A stretch of DNA of 27,044 bases from a virus, in the IMG/VR virus record IMGVR_UViG_3300018005_000202, positions 1-27,044 of that record; one strand, written 5' to 3'. Shown here in pieces: positions 8,175-24,580 of this stretch. A program made the position numbers and the translations under genes. Under the pieces are notes generated by a model. It was not told the origin of the DNA, made no database searches, and worked only from the letters and a program-made list of their open reading frames with translations. Position 1 is the stretch's first letter. Each line of letters begins with the position of its first letter.

Positions 8175-8356
8175 AGCGCCAAAGCCTTAAATACGTCGCC
8201 CAATGTCGAAGATTGAGCCTTCGACATTTGTAAGCCAATAACAAGCGCGTCATTCGTGCGATCTCTGATCATACAGCGCACTTCCTCGCCATCTGGGCTA
8301 TCGACTTTGCGGACGATTAGATCGACATCGCCGATTCGGATCGTTTTCTCGCCCAT
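8171..8356 (-). CDS. Small hypothetical protein (61 aa)
   Basis: I start this gene at the second in-frame ATG (8354-8356, MGEKTIRIGDVDLIVRK) because an AGGAG lies about 8 bases upstream; an earlier ATG at 8372-8374 would add six residues. The product is mixed alpha/beta with no membrane segment. Its 5-prime end overlaps the truncated GIY-YIG frame by about 59 bases in a different frame, suggesting it was joined to that remnant by deletion. Its stop overlaps the next gene's ATG by ATGA. Function unknown. Confidence 0.55.
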   Translation of the reverse strand: MGEKTIRIGDVDLIVRKVDSPDGEEVRCMIRDRTNDALVIGLQMSKAQSSTLGDVFKALAL

Positions 8357-8474
8357 GCGATTTTCTCCTCTCATGATGAAGCCAACGTTGACCTTTGCCT
8401 TTACCGATGTAGCAAGGCGAACCGTCCCACGGTCGAAAAAGAGCGTAAACGTAATAAATACGTTTTTCTGGCAT
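8298..8474 (-). pseudogene. Truncated GIY-YIG endonuclease remnant
   Basis: 58 aa from ATG at 8472-8474. The first 37 residues match the start of the GIY-YIG nuclease fold: an IYYVYALF strand in place of GIY, then CYIGKGKGQRWLHHERR, where YIG and the following Lys/Arg cluster are typical. After about residue 37 the sequence turns into a shadow of the overlapping 61-aa gene and stops, so the catalytic Glu helix is missing (family proteins usually run past 90 aa). I infer a decayed homing-type endonuclease. Its ATG overlaps the stop of the 157-aa gene by one base (TGATG). Confidence 0.65.
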
Positions 8475-8947
8475 CACGTAATCCAAGCGAGAGAACTCGC
8501 ACTATATAAACCGCTATCAATAAACGAAACTCCCGTTCCCGGCCGCGCGCGTTTGAAACGTGCCGATCGTTTTTTGCCGGAACGGCGGTCGAGCGCGGCT
8601 TGCGTCGGCACGCCGGGATAGCCGATCTTTTCCATTTCGCCTTCGGATAGGAACTTCTTGAAGCGGTCGCCGATCTTTGACGTCGCGGAGCCGAAGACGT
8701 CGAGCGAAGTCGGGGCACCCATCAAAAGGCTTTCCAGCGCGCCAGCGAGACCATCTTCAAGATCGCCAGCGATATTTTCTTTGTGAAGCTCCCAGAAGTT
8801 TTCGAATATGTGATATTTCGCCTCTAGAATTTCAGCCACGTCACCCGTCGTCTGTGTCCCGGCCGCGATTTTCTTTCTCCGTCTTTTGCCGCTCGGCGGA
8901 GGCTCGTTGTACGGAATGTCGTTTACACCGAGATGAAGTGTCGGCAT
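8474..8947 (-). CDS. Phage neck/tail-completion-like protein (157 aa)
   Basis: I set the start at ATG 8945-8947 (MPTLHLGVNDIPYNEPPPSG); the longer frame upstream is a shadow of the preceding gene. The protein has features of a phage family found between capsid and tail genes: N-terminal H-L-G-V-x-D-I-P-Y, a Lys/Arg patch, then TGDVAEILEAKYHIFENFWE, LAGALESLLMGAP, ATSKIGDRFKKFLS, and GYPGVPTQAAL near the C-terminus. A role in neck or tail-terminus assembly is inferred from position. It begins 5 bases after the 195-aa gene and ends at the GIY-YIG remnant. Confidence 0.7.
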   Translation of the reverse strand: MPTLHLGVNDIPYNEPPPSGKRRRKKIAAGTQTTGDVAEILEAKYHIFENFWELHKENIAGDLEDGLAGALESLLMGAPTSLDVFGSATSKIGDRFKKFLSEGEMEKIGYPGVPTQAALDRRSGKKRSARFKRARPGTGVSFIDSGLYSASSLAWIT

Positions 8948-12785: not shown

Positions 12786-14729
12786 TCAATGCTGAGTGAC
12801 GTTTCGCTTGAAGAAGTTCGCGCCAGGCGCCTTCGCCGCGCGTCCGGTCTGCCCGGCGAATTGGCTCATCCAAGTCGAAGGCTGGCCGTAGAAGTCGCGA
12901 TAGGTGTGGCCGCCCTCGACCCGCTCGACCATGCGTAGTACGTCGACCCCGATGTTCGTGGGATCGCGCGCCGCGACGATGGAATCCTCGAGAATCTGTC
13001 CGGAAGCGACGTTGAATGCGGCATCGTCGGCGAAAGCGGCCGACTTAAGGTCAACGCCCTTCCACCGCGGGCTGAGGACTTGAAGATCAAGCGTGGTGCG
13101 GCGCCGGAACTGCTTCGAGGTCTCACCCGGGATCGGGCGCGGCGTCTGCTTGCCGAGCAACGGGTAGACGCGGTCGGCCTCGGTCCAGGCGTCGGCGAGC
13201 GCGGCGTGCTCGTCGTCGGCGAGCGGGCGCACGAGCTTGGAAAGTTCGTCGAGTTGGCGTTTGACGTCGGCGCTATCGGCCATCGCGGCATCCTTCTTCG
13301 CCTTGTCGGCCTTTTCCTTTTCCTCTTTTTCCTTGTCCTCGGCGTCCTTCTTGGCCTTATCGGCGGCGAGCTTCTCGGCCTCGCCCTTGTCCTTGTCTTC
13401 GGCGTCTTTCTTCGCCGCGTCGTCCTTGCGGCGGGCGTCGTCGCGAGCCTTGTCCTTCTCCTCCATCGAATCCATGCGGCGGCCGAGGTGCGAGACGGCG
13501 TCCGCCATCTTGCCGAGATAGCCCGAGATTTCGGAGAGCTTGTCGTCGAGGTTCTTGCCAGCGTCGGCATCTTTGCGCGCGGCGTCGTCTTTGGCTTTGT
13601 CGTCGCGCGCTTTATCGTCTCGCTTCGCGGCGTCGTCGGCGGCCTTCTTCGCGGCAGCTTCCTCTTCAGGGGTCATCGCTGAGTCCTCTCTCGATTCGGA
13701 TCGAACGCCACTAATCTCGTCACCTTTATCCCAAACGCCGCGCGAACACAACGCGACGTGATCCAAAAGGCTAGGATCGCCCTCGACCAGCAGCTTCGCT
13801 CCGTTCTCCAGGGTGAGCTTCTGGTTGACGCTGAGATCGTGGAAGTAGACCGCCGGCGATGTCGATAGCTGGCCATCTTCAAGTTCTCGGCCAGCCTCTT
13901 CGTCGTAGACCTTGGCGATTCCCCAGACCTCGTCGCCCTTTTCGCCGCCAATGTACGGCAGAAAGATGCTCCCCACAACTCTTTCGGCGAACTCGTCGGA
14001 GTCCAGGAGCTGCCCCTTGGGATGCTTGTAGATTACCGTGAGACCGTTACAGCGCGCCAAGGCTTCGTCGTTCAGCCATATCTTCGGATCGCGGAAGACG
14101 AACTCCTTTAGCTTCGGCCGATAGGCGTATCCGGTCCCAGTGATTCGGATCGCCACCAGCCACATGTTCTCGTAACGCTGCGGAGACGTCAGCCGATTCG
14201 CGGCGATGGCGCGCGCGATGCCGAGCTCGTTCATGGTGAGTCGTTCGAGCGCGATCGAGCAGCCTGGATGAAGCGGCGCCGGCGGCGAGGCGACCGGGAC
14301 CCATGCCCAGCCATCGTGTTCGTCGTTCAGTTCCGGCGTGAACTCATTCGTCACTTTTTGCAAAAACGTGGAATAGTCCACGCCCGGCGCCCCCATCGGA
14401 CCAGCCGCGATCGCGCTTGCGGGGGGAGCCGGTGCCGGAGCAGCGGGCGGCGTAACAGGGACCGCCGCGGTCGCCGATCCGGCACCACCGTTGAGGTCGG
14501 CAACGGGCGCCCCTTTCTGCCGGGTCAGGAGCGACCGCACCCCCTCCGGCAGGAAACCAATCTCTTCGCGGGTTTCTCGGATCGCGGTCTGTTCGGTCGA
14601 TTCGTCACCATCTTGCCCGCCGCCGGGCAGATCCCAGTATCCGGCGAAATCTTGCGAGGCCGCGCTGCGGCGGAGAAAGAGCGCCGTTCCGTTCAACGAC
14701 AAAAAAAGTATGCCAGCGCCGCGGATCAC
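12786..14729 (-). CDS. Nudix hydrolase - DUF2213 protease - scaffold fusion
   Basis: 647 aa with three regions. (1) Residues about 1-165: a Nudix domain with box G-x5-E-x7-R-E-x2-E-E-x-G at residues 37-59; E52, E55 and E56 are present. An Ala/Pro-rich insert (about 75-125) interrupts it. (2) Residues about 175-350: a DUF2213-like domain (RYENMWLVAIRITGTGYAYR, WLNDEALARCNGLTVIYKHP, GQLSTSPAVYF), the family seen in prohead protease/scaffold genes. (3) Residues about 360-510: a long Lys/Asp/Glu/Ala coiled coil, then a folded C-terminal region. It probably acts as scaffold and maturation protease for the head; a substrate for the Nudix part is unknown. Its ATG overlaps the preceding stop by ATGA. 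Confidence 0.78.
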   Translation of the reverse strand: MIRGAGILFLSLNGTALFLRRSAASQDFAGYWDLPGGGQDGDESTEQTAIRETREEIGFLPEGVRSLLTRQKGAPVADLNGGAGSATAAVPVTPPAAPAPAPPASAIAAGPMGAPGVDYSTFLQKVTNEFTPELNDEHDGWAWVPVASPPAPLHPGCSIALERLTMNELGIARAIAANRLTSPQRYENMWLVAIRITGTGYAYRPKLKEFVFRDPKIWLNDEALARCNGLTVIYKHPKGQLLDSDEFAERVVGSIFLPYIGGEKGDEVWGIAKVYDEEAGRELEDGQLSTSPAVYFHDLSVNQKLTLENGAKLLVEGDPSLLDHVALCSRGVWDKGDEISGVRSESREDSAMTPEEEAAAKKAADDAAKRDDKARDDKAKDDAARKDADAGKNLDDKLSEISGYLGKMADAVSHLGRRMDSMEEKDKARDDARRKDDAAKKDAEDKDKGEAEKLAADKAKKDAEDKEKEEKEKADKAKKDAAMADSADVKRQLDELSKLVRPLADDEHAALADAWTEADRVYPLLGKQTPRPIPGETSKQFRRRTTLDLQVLSPRWKGVDLKSAAFADDAAFNVASGQILEDSIVAARDPTNIGVDVLRMVERVEGGHTYRDFYGQPSTWMSQFAGQTGRAAKAPGANFFKRNVTQH

Positions 14730-16338: not shown

Positions 16339-16556
16339 GCCGCAGTGGCCAATCAAAAATAAAACTTGGCTGCTCAACTGAAATGCTAAGGCCGAAAATC
16401 GACGATGTGTGGGAGTTTAGATAAAAAGATTGCGCCCCACCGTCCTATCCACGGGAATCCCGTAGAACGCACGCCATCCGGCGACAGTTCGGAGCGGCGG
16501 GGCGACTTTTCGAACCGGAAAATGTGCGCCTCGAGGGCGTTTGTCAAACGCTTGCG
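16339..16556 (-). other. 218-bp insertion in the HD-hydrolase gene
   Basis: If the HD-hydrolase is continuous between L-S-L-Q-C-R and F-G-G-H-C, the insert is about 218 bases. It contains several short perfect hairpins (CGTTT/AAACG, CGCC/GGCG, TTTTC/GAAAA, CGGG/CCCG). A second frame runs from the upstream exon to a TAA at 16417-16419 and ends GWRAFYGIPVDRTVGRNLFI, which looks like the tail of a protein. I do not see group I intron core sequences or a clear terminal repeat. Its nature is open. Confidence 0.5.
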
Positions 16557-16731: not shown

Positions 16732-18888
16732 CTATCCTATGGCTTCGAGACGCCGCATCAGTCGTCGTCGCTCCGCTTCGATCCCGACCGCTGGCCGAAT
16801 CGTCATCCGCTCCTCCCAGAATTGCGCCAGTTCGGCCGGGAGCGGCAGCTTCAGCATGAATCGCGCATAGCTTTCCGCGAAGACTTCCGAAGCGACGCTA
16901 TCGACCTTACCGCGGCGGCGGAGATCATCGAGATGTATCCGGTTCGCCATCTCGAGGAACGAACCGATCTTGTTCAGGTGCCGACGCTTGAACTCGGCGT
17001 AGGTCCCAGGGTCGATCTCCTGCCCGCGGTGGCCGGCCTCATGAAGGAGGATTTGGACGCGGTCCATCGCCGGGAGTTGATCGAATTTCCGCTGGATTTC
17101 GACGCTGTCATCGTCCGATTCGTAGGAAGCGTGCCAAGCGTCGCGATCATCCACGAAGCGAACATCGGTCACCCCGACGAAATATCCGAGCGCGTCGCGC
17201 CGCAGCGCCTTGCGGAAGATCTCTGAGTGGACGAGGTCGAGCCCGCTCGCCGCATCATCCGCCCGGGCCGCAGAGACTATGCGCGCATTCGCGAGCCACG
17301 CCTTGCCCTTCGCCGTGAGCATGTCGTCTGGCAAATCCCGGAGCGCGTATAAAAATCTGTAGGAACAACGGCAATTATGGACGATAATGCCATCGGCAAC
17401 AAACCAGCCTGATTCGGTTTGGAGATTATAGACATGCCCAGACCATTGCCGCCGTTCGATCTTGATGATGCGCGTCGCTCGTACCTCGAAGGGGAAAGTC
17501 TCTTGAGTTTGTCCAAACGATTGTGTGTTTCGCGCGGTGCGCTTGCCCACCATCTCAATATTCCTCTGCGGAATGGCTCCGAAGCAAACTTGATCCGTAT
17601 GGCCCGCGAAGGCGAAGATGGTCGGCGCAAATTGGTTGAGGCAGCACATAAAGCGCGCACCGGCGCTAAAGCTAGTTTGGAGGAAAAACTTAACCGCGCC
17701 CGCCGCCGTTCGACAGAGGTCGGCTACGGAGAACGAGAAGTGATGCAAGCCCTGCAGGCGCATGGGATTAAAACCGAATCTCAATGGCCATGCGGTCCCT
17801 ACAACATCGACATCGCTTGCGGTTCCATCGCCGTGGAATTGCTTACACGAGCCTCCAATCCTCTCAATGACCCCGAATTTATTGAGCGTAGCAAATATCT
17901 CTGCAATGCAGGTTACTGTCTTATTTTGGTTCGTTTCCGAGTTGACCGAACGGACGATGTTATCGCTAATCTCGATCATATCGTCGCCTTCATTGAGCGC
18001 GCCAATCTGGACCCATCCATGAGAAGTAAGAATTGGGTGATTAGGTGTAGCTCGGAGCGTTTTGCCAGAGGCCGTAATGATCGTGGTCAAGTCACCGCTG
18101 TACCAACGCCGATACGCTTTTTCCACATTATCAGCGAATGGTATCTGTGAGTCGCCAGGGAAGCAGAAGGGAAGTTGCGCCGGTGCTTCGATTTCGTCGA
18201 CGAAAGGTCGACTATTCTTCTTGACCAAACCGGCACGATGCGCCCACGAATCGCGGACAAGATAGATTTGCTCGTCGCGCGCTTTATGCTCAGGCCTCGC
18301 GTCATAGCCTGCCTGACGCCACATACTTCGCCACATTCCCGCTATCGCTCCCCCGTCCGTGGCAACGAGATCGTTGATTGAGGCGATGAGTTTAGCCGAT
18401 TGATCGATCACAACGCGGCGTTCTTCATACGGCAGCGAGGCAAGCGCCTTCTTAACGTTTTGCTTGACCTCGCGCCTTCCCTCTGCCGAAACCCCGCCGG
18501 GCGGAATCGACGTCGACCAACCCTGGAATCGCCGCAGCGTCTTCTCGATCGATTCGGCCCGGTTGAGCTTGATGAGATCGGACGAGGCGACGATCCGCCG
18601 GTCGAGTTCGGCACGGAGTTGAGGTCGCACCTTCTCCAGCGTGAACCGCTCGACGCCTTGGTGATATTTTGCGATCCCGCCGCGCTCGACGAGACGCCGG
18701 TAGATCGTCGCCAATCCTTCCCGGAGCTGCTGCTCCAGCGCCACCGCCGAGATCATCGAGGCCTCGGCCGCGATCCGGAGTTCGCGCGTCCACTTCGCGA
18801 TTCGTTCCCCCGAATCAAAGCCATGCTGCAAAATGTCCTCGACCGCAGCGTCAAGGACTTCCTGAAAGGTCTTCAGGCGGGCGGTCAT
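16732..18888 (-). CDS. MuF-like head morphogenesis protein with intein and C-terminal HExxH domain
   Basis: 718 aa precursor. N-extein (1-241): helical MuF-type minor head protein, with RPEHKARDEQIYLVRDSW before the intein. Intein: residues 242-505. C-extein (506-718): C-R-C-S-Y-R-F, the conserved end of the MuF domain, then a C-terminal region with HEAGH at 616-620 and a downstream EVFAESYARF (E668, E672) that could give the third zinc ligand, so a possible metallopeptidase. Splicing would give about 454 aa. MuF proteins are minor capsid components near the portal, and here it follows the portal gene. Its ATG overlaps the stop of the 78-aa gene by ATGA. The peptidase reading is inference. 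Confidence 0.85.
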   Translation of the reverse strand: MTARLKTFQEVLDAAVEDILQHGFDSGERIAKWTRELRIAAEASMISAVALEQQLREGLATIYRRLVERGGIAKYHQGVERFTLEKVRPQLRAELDRRIVASSDLIKLNRAESIEKTLRRFQGWSTSIPPGGVSAEGRREVKQNVKKALASLPYEERRVVIDQSAKLIASINDLVATDGGAIAGMWRSMWRQAGYDARPEHKARDEQIYLVRDSWAHRAGLVKKNSRPFVDEIEAPAQLPFCFPGDSQIPFADNVEKAYRRWYSGDLTTIITASGKTLRATPNHPILTSHGWVQIGALNEGDDMIEISDNIVRSVNSETNQNKTVTCIAEIFATLNKFGVIERIGGSCKQFHGDGTASDVDVVGTAWPLRFGFNPMRLQGLHHFSFSVADLCRTAAGAVKFFLQTSFSAGARFMCCLNQFAPTIFAFAGHTDQVCFGAIPQRNIEMVGKRTARNTQSFGQTQETFPFEVRATRIIKIERRQWSGHVYNLQTESGWFVADGIIVHNCRCSYRFLYALRDLPDDMLTAKGKAWLANARIVSAARADDAASGLDLVHSEIFRKALRRDALGYFVGVTDVRFVDDRDAWHASYESDDDSVEIQRKFDQLPAMDRVQILLHEAGHRGQEIDPGTYAEFKRRHLNKIGSFLEMANRIHLDDLRRRGKVDSVASEVFAESYARFMLKLPLPAELAQFWEERMTIRPAVGIEAERRRLMRRLEAIG
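17421..17424 (+). promoter_or_regulatory. Shine-Dalgarno for antisense nuclease
   Basis: GGAG lies 9 bases before ATG 17434-17436 on the plus strand. The TTG at 17419 would also open the frame but lacks such a site. This decides the start. It is also part of the intein coding sequence on the other strand. Confidence 0.5.
17434..18150 (+). CDS. Putative homing endonuclease (Vsr/DUF559-like) nested antisense in the intein
   Basis: 238 aa, the only convincing plus-strand gene. Residues about 10-35 form a helix-turn-helix (YLEGESLLSLSKRLCVSRGA). Residues about 45-90 are basic (MAREGEDGRRKLVEAAHKAR). Residues about 97-170 form a Vsr/DUF559-like nuclease core: GYGEREVMQALQAHGI, then GPYNIDIACGSIAVEL (D and E of a PD-(D/E)xK-type site), then CNAGYCLILVRF. 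Homologue-like features continue to NWVIRCSSERFARG. GGAG supports the ATG, and TGA at 18148-18150 lies opposite intein Ser6. It starts 60 bases inside one intein end and stops 15 inside the other. I infer it cuts intein-less MuF alleles. The typical Lys of ExK is not obvious. Confidence 0.75.
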   Translation: MPRPLPPFDLDDARRSYLEGESLLSLSKRLCVSRGALAHHLNIPLRNGSEANLIRMAREGEDGRRKLVEAAHKARTGAKASLEEKLNRARRRSTEVGYGEREVMQALQAHGIKTESQWPCGPYNIDIACGSIAVELLTRASNPLNDPEFIERSKYLCNAGYCLILVRFRVDRTDDVIANLDHIVAFIERANLDPSMRSKNWVIRCSSERFARGRNDRGQVTAVPTPIRFFHIISEWYL

Positions 18889-21312: not shown

Positions 21313-21861
21313 GGCGATCGAGATCATAAGATCGCGGAACGCCAATGGCGTTGCTGCCAACTCTGCATCCGGCAGAAGCGGCAGTTTTTGGTCGAATTTT
21401 CCGATCTGATATTTGCCAGCAACTCGCCTCCATCTAAGCAGTGGCGGAGTTATACCGGCACAAAGCAACCACGTCCGCTTGCGGGCGCGATGCCCATAGG
21501 AGGATTGCCATATCTCGGTAACCCAATCTCCGTCGATTGTCCTTTGCCAACCGTCGTCTATTGGCTCTGGTAATCCATGAAATTTGAAGGCTCGAGATTC
21601 GGCGGGATGCTCAAGCACACCACCCCAACGACGGACGGCGGCCAATGCCGCTGCAAAGCATCCGTCGTCATCGTCTATCTTGTAGCCCCATCGTTTATGA
21701 TTGACCGCGCTCAGTTGGTGCCATCGCTCACAGGGAGGATGGGCCACGACCGACCAAGGGCCATCGTACAGCCGCGCATCACGCTCGACCGGCTACAGGT
21801 CCACGTCCGGCAAACCGGCATAGATGCCCTCGGCGTCAACGAATAGAGCGGCTATCTTCAT
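21295..21861 (-). pseudogene. Accessory phage protein (about 188 codons) interrupted by an in-frame TAG
   Basis: From ATG 21859-21861 the frame reads MKIAALFVDAEGIYAGLPDV-D-L, TAG at 21793-21795 (codon 23), then PVERDARLYDGPWSVVAHPP and an open frame to 21295. Both sides belong together: relatives I recall have a Trp exactly there (L-W-P or similar), so one base (TGG to TAG) explains the stop. The downstream part has C-F-A-A-A-L-A-A-V-R-R-W-G-G-V-L-E-H-P and RKRTWLLCAG. A GTG at 21745-21747 could restart translation, but it would lose a conserved segment. TAG is used as a normal stop elsewhere here, so genome-wide recoding is unlikely. Function unknown. Confidence 0.65.
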
Positions 21862-21885
21862 CGCGGTCAGGTCTTTAGACCAGCC

Positions 21886-22341
21886 CTAGCCCCGCCGCGG
21901 CGGCGGTGCTGGCATTCCCATCACTAACGGCCCGCGCGGCGGCTGCTTCTCGGCCGGTCTCGGCTTCACCGAATCGACGCCCTCGGCGAACGCCTTCTTC
22001 ATGTCGGCCCTGAGCCTGAGAACCGGGCCGATATCGCCTTGGAGCGCGTCCGACATCAGGCCGCCGGCGACGCGGGCGACCGACATAAAAAGCAAGCCCG
22101 GCGGGATGCCCGGTCCCGAGACTAGGAGACCGCGCAGCACGATCCCGATGACCTGTTGCACCTGCGGGTCGAGCATCGCCTTGACCTTGTCCATCGGCGC
22201 GTCGTTGCCTTCCGGGACTGGTTCGGCGAGCGCCTCGCGGAGCTTGTTGACTTTGCCTTCGATCGCGGGACCGCCGAGCTGACCGTTGGCGCGTTGGTCA
22301 AAATCGGCGATTGAATCGCGTGGCTTTTCGTCTTCCGTCAT
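21886..22341 (-). CDS. Hypothetical phage protein (151 aa)
   Basis: 151 aa. A polar N-terminus (SIADFDQRANGQLGG), a central hydrophobic region (QVIGIVLRGLLVSGPGIPPG then LLFMSVARVAGGLMSD) that could be an amphipathic or membrane-associated helix pair, and a basic Pro-rich C-terminus (MPAPPPRRG). It lies upstream of the portal in the packaging cluster. Its start is 66 bases downstream of repeat copy A, as the 226-aa gene is 65 bases downstream of copy B, so the two may share control. Family unknown. Confidence 0.6.
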   Translation of the reverse strand: MTEDEKPRDSIADFDQRANGQLGGPAIEGKVNKLREALAEPVPEGNDAPMDKVKAMLDPQVQQVIGIVLRGLLVSGPGIPPGLLFMSVARVAGGLMSDALQGDIGPVLRLRADMKKAFAEGVDSVKPRPAEKQPPRGPLVMGMPAPPPRRG

Positions 22342-22406
22342 AGGAGTTCTTCTTTTGCTGTAAGCATCGCCTTTATGGCCTGAATTTTTGTTTCATCCCT
22401 TATATC

Positions 22407-22447
22407 ATGCTTATCCGGTTTAGACACACAGCCCTACATCTTGTGGT
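22407..22447 (-). repeat. 41-bp repeat, copy A (possible regulatory element)
   Basis: On the plus strand it reads ATGCTTATCCGGTTTAGACA then ACAGCC, TACA and CTTGTGGT, with 38 of 41 bases identical to 26353-26393. It covers the 3-prime end of the 84-aa gene and lies 66 bases before the ATG of the 151-aa gene. The coding frame differs from that of copy B, so a regulatory role is more likely than shared protein. Confidence 0.6.
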
Positions 22448-22688
22448 CAGGTTCGCGCCCGTGAAAATCTTGGGCTTGGTCCCAGCGTTCGCCGGTCTCG
22501 CCGCCTTTGCTTACCGAGCAAACGATAGATGCCCATTCCGCCGCTGGAATTACCAATGTGGTGCGGCCATCACCCGGCGCGCAGTTAGGATCGTGCTTTT
22601 CAAAGTCGCCGTGATTGCGAACTTCTACGCTGCCATCCGGCAGCCGCGACCAGTACCATCCATTTTGCCAGTGAAAAGCCATCGTCAT
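22434..22688 (-). CDS. Small phage protein, W-Y-W-S-R-L-P-D-G-S type (84 aa)
   Basis: 84 aa. N-terminal AFHWQNGWYWSRLPDGSVEV, later VIPAAEWASIVCSVSKGGET and a C-terminal DFHGREPDHKM. The aromatic-rich start and the E-W-A-S-I-V segment resemble a family of small phage proteins I have seen near packaging genes; function unknown. An AGGAG lies 4 bases before the first ATG (22688) and 10 before a second (22682), so the start may be M3. It ends in repeat copy A. Confidence 0.6.
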   Translation of the reverse strand: MTMAFHWQNGWYWSRLPDGSVEVRNHGDFEKHDPNCAPGDGRTTLVIPAAEWASIVCSVSKGGETGERWDQAQDFHGREPDHKM

Positions 22689-22710
22689 TTTCTCCTATAT
22701 CTAGTGGGTT

Positions 22711-22821
22711 TCAGGGCTTGTGTGTGGCAACCGGATAAGCAATGTTTTCGTTTTTAAGCGGCATATTCTGAAACGTTTGAAGACGCATCAGTAAGTTCGG
22801 ATGGAATCGAAATTCGTTCAT
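22711..22821 (-). CDS. Micro-gene (36 aa)
   Basis: ATG 22819-22821 (MNEFRFHPNLLMRLQTFQNM) follows a strong AAGGAGAGG Shine-Dalgarno and overlaps the stop of the 68-aa membrane gene by ATGA. It ends TGA at 22711-22713, with C-terminal N-I-A-Y-P-V-A-T-H-K-P that coincides with the partial inverted repeat (copy C). Basic and Asn-rich; no function known. The coupled start argues that it is real. Confidence 0.5.
   Translation of the reverse strand: MNEFRFHPNLLMRLQTFQNMPLKNENIAYPVATHKP
22713..22742 (+). repeat. Partial inverted copy (C) of the 41-bp repeat
   Basis: Plus strand GGGCTTGTGTGTGGC then AACCGGATAAGCA matches the reverse complement of copies A and B (AACCGGATAAGCA identical over 13 bases, GTGTGT conserved, one base inserted, three changed). 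The orientation is opposite to A and B. Confidence 0.5.
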
Positions 22822-23123: not shown

Positions 23124-23144
23124 TTCAGAACCCTTTCGCGTTGT

Positions 23145-23223: not shown

Positions 23224-24580
23224 TCAGAATCCCTTTGCGTTACCAAGGGCAATCGCCACGCCATAACAGAAGCAGTCAAAGCAAGTCGTCGGACCGAGTC
23301 GGCGTCTTGTCGCCGACTCGGAAGCCAACGACTTCCCCTAAGAGATGATTCCTGGTTGTGCCTTTGTAAATCGTCGTTTTGTCATAGGCGTGGCGGCTGA
23401 TCTTGACGAAGCCGCGATAGACGTATCCAGAGACAGAGATTGCGCGCTCGTCCTTGCCTAGAGCTGTCAGCTTAGAATCGATCGCATGCGCTGGCCAGCC
23501 GCGCCGCATGGCCTGTTGAATCAGGACCATGCCCGTCGCTTTATCCTCGATCATTGAACCGAGAGAGCCCATGCGAGCATGGCAAGTTTGCGCGAAATGT
23601 TGCAGATGCTGGAAGACAGTCGGGAGCCAAGTCTCCAATAGCGCGCCTTCGATCTGCTGAATATCCCAATCGAGGATGATGAGATTGTATTGCGGGCCAA
23701 CAACGCCTTCAGCGGAGACCGACCGAATAACGTTTCGGAGGAGCGCGTAATAGACCACCGCCGTTCCATCGTTTTCCTTCCCGGTCTTTACGGCCGTGTC
23801 GATAACGGCGAACACAGCTTCGCAGCGAATGGGATAATCTACGGGCTGACCATTCACAAGCAAGCTGTCGCGCGTGAAAAAAGCCGACCCTGACCAATCC
23901 ACAAATTCAGCAAGAAATTCTTGCTCATAAACGAGCGGGAGATTGTCTCGTTGTAATGCCTCGACCTCGGCGCGGGGAAGATACGGATTTGATCGTGTCG
24001 GGGCATGAAATTGAACAAAGCCGTATCTCGCCTCATTGCATAGCGCAAACAACATGTTGTCAGGATCGATGCCGTTTGTGTTCGACATCATCAGCGCGCG
24101 GCCGCCGTAATCGAGAAGCGTCGGTTTGATCGATTTCGTCCAGATGTCGATCGACTTCGGCTTGGTGAATGCGATTTCGTCGCCGATGACGCGATGGTAT
24201 TTCCGGGACCGGCCGGCGTTCTCGTCCTCCATCGACCAGAACTCGACGCGGCCTCCGGTGATGGTCTCGATCATGCCGTGGGTCTTGTCGGATCGTTTCT
24301 TGATCGGATCCAGCGCCTCGACGATGACGTTGTAGCTCTCGGAGAGCCGCTTGTTCTCCGGGGCGAACCAGCCGACCCGCAGGCCGTGCGCGGCATCATC
24401 GCTGGCGACCGTCTCGCCGACGACGTTCTTGCCCCATCGCCGACCACAGCGGGCGACCACGAACCGGCACTGCGACATCAGCCAGCGAAGTTTCGCTTGG
24501 GCCGGGAAGAACGTCGGGAGATTGACGACCGCCGTCTCGGAGTTCTGCGGCGGCAGATCGAGAAGTGTGGCGTCGGACAT
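23224..24580 (-). CDS. terL: Terminase large subunit (TerL), probably completed by +1 frameshift
   Basis: The in-frame product is 434 aa (24580-23276). ATPase: Walker A-like C-G-R-R-W-G-K-N at 45-52 and Walker B R-V-I-G-D-E-I-A-F at 130-138. Nuclease: F-A-V-I-D at about 257-261 and M-I-E-D at 343-346. Motif III starts as R-S-D-D-L-L and the frame then stops (TGA 23276-23278). In the +1 frame it continues D-C-F-C-Y-G-V-A-I-A-L-G-N-A-K-G-F, stop at 23224, so the joined sequence D-D-L-L-D-x-x-x-Y-G has the normal motif III. The full product would be 451 aa. The site CTT TGA C is the prfB-type slip site. TerL translocates and cuts DNA at the portal. Confidence 0.9.
23275..23281 (-). promoter_or_regulatory. 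Putative +1 frameshift site CTT TGA C in terL
   Basis: CTT TGA C on the minus strand equals the slippery heptamer of bacterial prfB (RF2). A shift on CTT to TTT bypasses the TGA and reads GAC, restoring motif III. Unlike prfB there is no AGGGGG just upstream. A sequencing error or a point insertion is the alternative. Confidence 0.6.
23294..23321 (-). other. Perfect 11-bp hairpin just upstream of the terL slip site
   Basis: CCGAGTCGGCG and CGCCGACTCGG pair around a 6-base loop within terL. In the mRNA the stem ends about 12 bases before the CTT. It could be a stimulatory element or reflect coding (R-V-G-D-K-T-P-T-R). Confidence 0.55.

Follow-up and report, generated by a model that had tools for sequence, protein, structure and literature searches.

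The CTT TGA C site of +1 ribosomal frameshifting is known from prfB, and a Shine-Dalgarno duplex stimulates +1 shifting at a spacing of 3 nt (PMC5009743). Within the RECODE collection, every +1 case that has the CUU-stop motif is a prfB gene (PMC10885494). Stimulation by hairpins is known from designed sequences: in yeast, hairpins placed close to the E site increase +1 shifting (PMC3639245), and an engineered hairpin at CUUUGA gave ~60% of the Shine-Dalgarno effect with Escherichia coli 70S ribosomes, only without RF2 and in vitro (PMC6321510). For the designed hairpins, it has been proposed either that closure of the stem pulls the mRNA 5′-ward or that the hairpin acts as a wheel-chock against backward movement (PMC3639245); a related zippering model exists for T4 gene 60, a phage gene whose recoded insert possibly conferred protection from a homing endonuclease (PMC5009743).

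The locus described here is a terminase large subunit gene (terL) in a virus record of IMG/VR; the window is the whole stretch analysed, 27,044 bases in length. Its shift site resembles that of prfB in the sequence CTT TGA C, in a duplexed mRNA strand that ends 3 nt before CUU, and in a UGA followed by C, but it resides near the 3′ end of terL instead, adjoins an mRNA hairpin and not an mRNA–16S rRNA duplex, and shows no evident autoregulation by the gene product. The site can thus be said to work like prfB without being a member of that class, as it has no AGGGGG Shine-Dalgarno sequence and the gene is not that of release factor 2. With the engineered systems it shares a stable GC-rich hairpin next to the E site and 5′ of a site prone to +1 shifting; those are designed constructs, whereas the terL arrangement, a putative stimulator, is natural, conserved, and located in an essential phage gene. 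T4 gene 60 likewise combines a recoding insert in a phage gene, an upstream stem-loop, and a link to an endonuclease-rich site, but it involves a 50-nt bypass and not a one-base +1 shift, and in terL a replacement 3′ end is present, the old tail is displaced, and an endonuclease gene adjoins only one of the five shifting lineages. T4 gene 60 is the nearest precedent for the hotspot at the terL 3′ end. Recoding in a terminase gene has also been proposed for Streptomyces phage Hau3, but as bypassing at a UUA codon, not as a +1 shift at CUU UGA (PMC5009743). The literature searched contains no report of a terminase with a CUU-stop +1 site, in agreement with the original prediction, which knew of none; neither the natural occurrence of this combination in terL nor its exchange between phages seems to have been reported there.

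The terL reading frames and their conservation

The frames of the window gene are as follows.

23276..24580, minus strand: terL in the 0 frame, 434 aa, ending in RSDDLL at TGA 23278–23276 (open reading frame, PHROG match, and predicted structure)
23275..23281, minus strand: shift site CTTTGAC, with CTT in the P site and TGA in the A site; the same heptamer is found in all five shifting lineages
23224..23277, minus strand: +1-frame tail DCFCYGVAIALGNAKGF and stop (23226–23224), completing motif III (D435) and the last nuclease helix (432–445)

The gene was identified as terL by a PHROG match (E 2.5e-23) and by an AlphaFold model (pLDDT 89), which contains both parts of the large-terminase fold (ATPase and RNase H-like nuclease), matching the D6E TerL over residues 23–447 (Z 26.6) and the G20c nuclease over 228–445 (Z 13.8). 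The predicted protein matches these solved terminases through its last helix, 432–445. It was originally predicted that the 434-aa frame (24580..23276, minus strand) stops inside nuclease motif III (DDLL) and that a +1 shift at CTT TGA C restores DDLL-DCFCYGVAIALGNAKGF; the positions and the reading both proved correct. D432 and D435, the latter being the first residue past the shift, are invariant across 55 aligned TerLs; judging from the model, the 434-aa product would end before D435 and lack most of the last helix of the 451-aa shifted form. A −2 shift at the site was rejected because it would add one residue (F) that is absent from every relative. CTTTGAC occurs twice in the window (2.8 expected), and its frequency by itself is ordinary; it stands out from chance through its conservation and its placement at nuclease motif III.

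No tRNA genes were found in the window, and an Rfam search gave no match at the shift site. Elsewhere in the window, Rfam RNA DUF3800-IX (RF02968) lies at 16431–16502 (minus strand; 58 bits against a gathering score of 36.8), and the ORF at 12786–14729 (minus strand) encodes 647 aa, in which a NUDIX domain at the N terminus is fused to phage protein phrog_6216 (function unassigned).

The extra T is kept in all 12 IMG/VR contigs with 99–100% identical TerL. Four further lineages, at 60–73% TerL identity to the window, have the same CTTTGAC and an open +1 tail of equal length: L016 (70%), L024/L031/L061 (73%), L066 (61%), and L058 (60%), the last three of which were added via a pattern scan followed by tblastn. 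The shifting form thus amounts to five lineages and 19 records, window included, all of them metagenome-derived. The other shifting loci were read by script, as blanket decoding of CTTT as L misreads their earlier CTTT codons. The tail keeps its length and sequence, and where the lineages differ in it, they do so mainly at third positions of the +1-frame codons. Conservation of both the shift site and the shifted frame in divergent relatives, the mark of a programmed +1 frameshift, is therefore present in this gene.

Further TerL relatives were fetched, and essentially all of them read motif III without a shift; among them are relatives, such as L015 (78%), that resemble the window more than the distant shifting lineages do. 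Two types of terL allele, shifting and uninterrupted, therefore coexist. One TerL relative (L019, 1816–3921) is split in its Walker A region by an insert that resembles LAGLIDADG endonucleases and is apparently an intein; in the window, a head-morphogenesis-like protein of 718 aa (16732–18888, minus strand; PHROG head protein) contains an inserted intein splicing domain (Pfam PF14890, residues 253–505).

The original prediction had named two grounds for rejecting it: data lacking the extra T, and relatives with an uninterrupted frame. The first is contradicted by the 12 near-identical contigs and the four divergent lineages, all of which keep the T. Close relatives of the second kind, such as L015 and L206, would favour an artefact of sequencing or assembly, or a terL that has broken down recently. 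Such relatives do exist, but their entire terL 3′ end belongs to another allele, with GQ and E/Q before DD in place of GE and S/P, and for this reason they do not show the shifting allele to be an error. The same extra base is present in 19 records of five lineages, the +1 tail is constrained, and the surrounding sequence is hyper-conserved (see the next section); a read error at the site is ruled out by independent assemblies with the same extra base, and error or gene decay as a whole is extremely improbable. With the extra T conserved in near-identical and divergent phages alike and the tails open, the proposal that TerL needs a +1 shift at an RF2-type site is supported, and the site is very probably a programmed +1 ribosomal frameshift required for full-length TerL.

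Comparison of the conserved DNA with INPHARED phages and PLSDB plasmids yielded short chance matches only, and matches of the site and cassette patterns outside terL in IMG/VR were likewise at chance. A partial terL near L079 is present in a Hyphomicrobiales bog MAG and ends before the shift site; no other close TerL was found among 397 Hyphomicrobiales genomes, this MAG included. The prfB-like pattern AGGRGG-N3-CTTTGAC was not found in the bog MAG and had one match in a Rhizobiales MAG.

The upstream hairpin and the 68-nt cassette

The prfB-like Shine-Dalgarno sequence AGGGGG is absent from the position 3 nt upstream of CTT, as had been predicted; the sequence there is CCGACGACTTG, and its register is occupied by one strand of a hairpin, which the original prediction did not include.

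23271..23338, minus strand: recoding cassette of 68 nt, GGGGAAGTYGTYGG...CTTTGACTGCT, conserved in all five lineages and ending just past the heptamer
23325..23334, minus strand: 5′ arm of the lower stem, AAGUCGUUGG, from folding
23294..23321, minus strand: upper stem-loop, a perfect 11-bp stem (arms 23321–23311 and 23304–23294) with a 6-nt loop
23283..23292, minus strand: 3′ arm of the lower stem, CCGACGACUU, with CCGACGAC at −11 to −4 from CUU, the register of the prfB Shine-Dalgarno sequence

The cassette folds into a single long hairpin composed of a 10-bp lower stem (AAGUCGUYGG/CCGACGACUU) and the upper stem, which is perfect at 11 bp in the window. The hairpin was found in all five lineages, with folding z-scores of −3.9 to −6.5 versus −1.1 in one uninterrupted relative. 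Because the VVG and DD codons can pair anyway, each region was synonymously recoded 1000 times to separate RNA folding from protein demand. In all five shifting lineages the native sequence folds more stably than its recodings (z −2.2 to −2.9); in eight uninterrupted relatives it does not (z +0.2 to +1.8). The lower stem comes free with the protein in part, its VVG/DD codons being pairable in any relative. Synonymous identity over the 23 codons around the cassette is 0.763 versus 0.541 gene-wide (13 of 20,000 permutations), and is 0.431 in this region of the uninterrupted relatives. When only the mRNA upstream of the E-site codon was folded, pairing reached exactly −4 in all shifting lineages, leaving three bases before CUU. 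A stable hairpin that adjoins the E site and goes beyond protein-coding constraint is thus present in shifting terL. Covariation is weak because most stem positions never vary: a single pair shows substitutions in both strands, and where only one strand has changed, G-U pairing is mostly kept. One upper-stem pair is broken by a polymorphism inside the window's lineage.

Packaging sites are often located near terminase genes. It is conceivable that the conserved inverted repeat acts as DNA, e.g. as an endonuclease, packaging, or recombination site, with the shift being incidental or unstimulated; the weak covariation, this neighbourhood, and the location of the cassette at a replacement hotspot (see the next section) are compatible with such a role. 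We nevertheless consider it unlikely, since several variable stem positions have changed from C to T opposite G, which keeps RNA pairing but not DNA pairing, pairing stops at −4 from CUU in all shifting lineages, and the element occurs only together with the shift site, the 5′ half of the cassette being confined to shifting terL genes in IMG/VR. The 434-aa product could also be the working protein and the +1 tail a relic maintained only by recombination with uninterrupted alleles, given that the shifting tails resemble those of uninterrupted relatives and that 3′ ends are exchanged. A relic would require conservation of neither heptamer nor hairpin, yet D435 is invariant and the +1 reading is maintained in every shifting lineage, which makes a relic very improbable. 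Programmed frameshifting, aided by the hairpin, is thus the preferred reading.

Exchange of terL 3′ ends between phages

In a TerL tree built without the last 70 residues, the shifting lineages do not form one clade (log-likelihood difference 211, p-AU 2e-65), and the shifting form swaps between phages that are 96–97% identical in TerL. The DNA of L283 (the L024 contig, shifting) is 97.6% identical to that of L206 (uninterrupted) up to the terL end, with the mismatches bunched in the last ~200 bases of terL; beyond the gene, 181 or 691 bp differ and then 99% identity resumes. The same swap pattern recurs between the shifting L197 (the L066 contig) and the uninterrupted L198, with ~630 extra bp in L197. 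Occupied and empty sites are therefore found in two pairs of near-identical genomes, and the exchange is confined to the site.

Displaced terL tails are found beyond the exchanged ends. In L197, the native tail GVAIALGNAEGF and its stop lie after an endonuclease gene and are followed by the next gene; L283 contains the displaced tail CYGATIALGDSEGF with a stop, and L058 contains GALGNAEGF with a stop. The extra DNA of L016 terminates in a TGACCATGTCGAACAACGG junction that exactly matches the native end of terL in L198. The candidate counterpart in the window is short and weak alone, those in L283, L197, and L058 being stronger.

23125..23142, minus strand: possible displaced native terL end AACGCGAAAGGGTTCTGA, reading NAKGF and a stop

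The terL tails of L206 and L015 are closely similar. The 3′ end of terL is thus a replacement hotspot: incoming elements supply a new 3′ end, and the old tail is displaced downstream. The frameshift cassette represents one such replacement, i.e. one of at least two interchangeable terL 3′-end alleles. The region behind terL is variable. In the gap between terL and the portal gene (window 21858–22790), near-identical phages (the window versus L013, L008, and L011) differ by indels of several hundred bases.

Several of these 3′ ends are accompanied by endonuclease genes. The extra DNA of L197 encodes a GIY-YIG/NUMOD3-type endonuclease (PHROG homing endonuclease, E 8e-17; Pfam marginal), the ATG of which overlaps the terL stop; this L066 lineage is the only one of the five shifting lineages with an adjoining endonuclease. 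In the uninterrupted L206 and L082, HNH-type genes lie on the opposite strand, and here too a displaced tail follows; L015 has an HNH remnant. GIY-YIG-like ORFs start at the end of uninterrupted terL as well (L151 and L018), and endonucleases at this position are therefore not confined to the shifting allele. In the window, a 62-aa ORF, YYVYALFRPWDGSPCYIGKG, at 8298–8486 (minus strand) looks by eye like a GIY-YIG start and resembles the gene behind the L066 terL; it has no Pfam match.

The distribution of the shifting form could alternatively reflect ancestry, with several losses and no spread between phages, and change counts on the tree cannot separate gain from loss. However, the uninterrupted relatives differ over the whole 3′ end and not by one T, and L206 carries an L015-like tail and an HNH gene inside DNA that is 97–99% identical to that of L283; loss would then likewise have occurred by replacement. 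Ancestry with repeated loss seems to us a rather unlikely history. Exchange between phages being preferred, the endonucleases may drive the spread of the cassette, and the cassette may give immunity to them. It is possible, although we put this forward only tentatively, that the cassette is a mobile recoding element: a replacement terL 3′ end would be spread by homing-type gene conversion, the altered sequence and the extra base would destroy an endonuclease target lying in those nuclease-motif codons that are under the strongest constraint, and the hairpin-driven +1 shift would leave TerL essentially unchanged, so that recoding would serve as homing immunity. Neither the hotspot with its displaced tails nor the endonucleases had been part of the original prediction, the observation of which is confirmed and the core interpretation supported, with a different stimulator and in a wider context.

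Proposed mechanism and its implications

In the proposed mechanism, CUU would occupy the P site and UGA(C) the A site, where termination would be slow. The mRNA just behind the E site would refold into the GC-rich hairpin, the 3′ strand of which ends at −4, and this duplex may stand in for the Shine-Dalgarno duplex of prfB, either blocking the ribosome or pulling it 3′-ward, much as has been proposed for the designed upstream hairpins. The peptidyl-tRNA-Leu would then re-pair from CUU to UUU, and translation would continue in the +1 frame, adding D435 and the last nuclease helix. Non-shifting ribosomes would release the 434-aa protein, which lacks D435 and this helix and is probably inactive as a nuclease. 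One possible use of the shift may be to set a low ratio of full-length to truncated TerL. The shift may depend on RF2, and the suggested coupling of nuclease output to release-factor level, i.e. gating by RF2 supply, is likewise possible by analogy.

Gene callers would give a truncated TerL at such sites, so that similar cases are easily overlooked. If the reading is correct, the prfB-type site has a second gene, which encodes an essential phage motor, and a natural mRNA hairpin lies in the exact register of the prfB Shine-Dalgarno duplex. The way in which a duplex upstream of the site promotes +1 shifting could then be tested directly, and recoding would be tied to an endonuclease-rich recombination hotspot.
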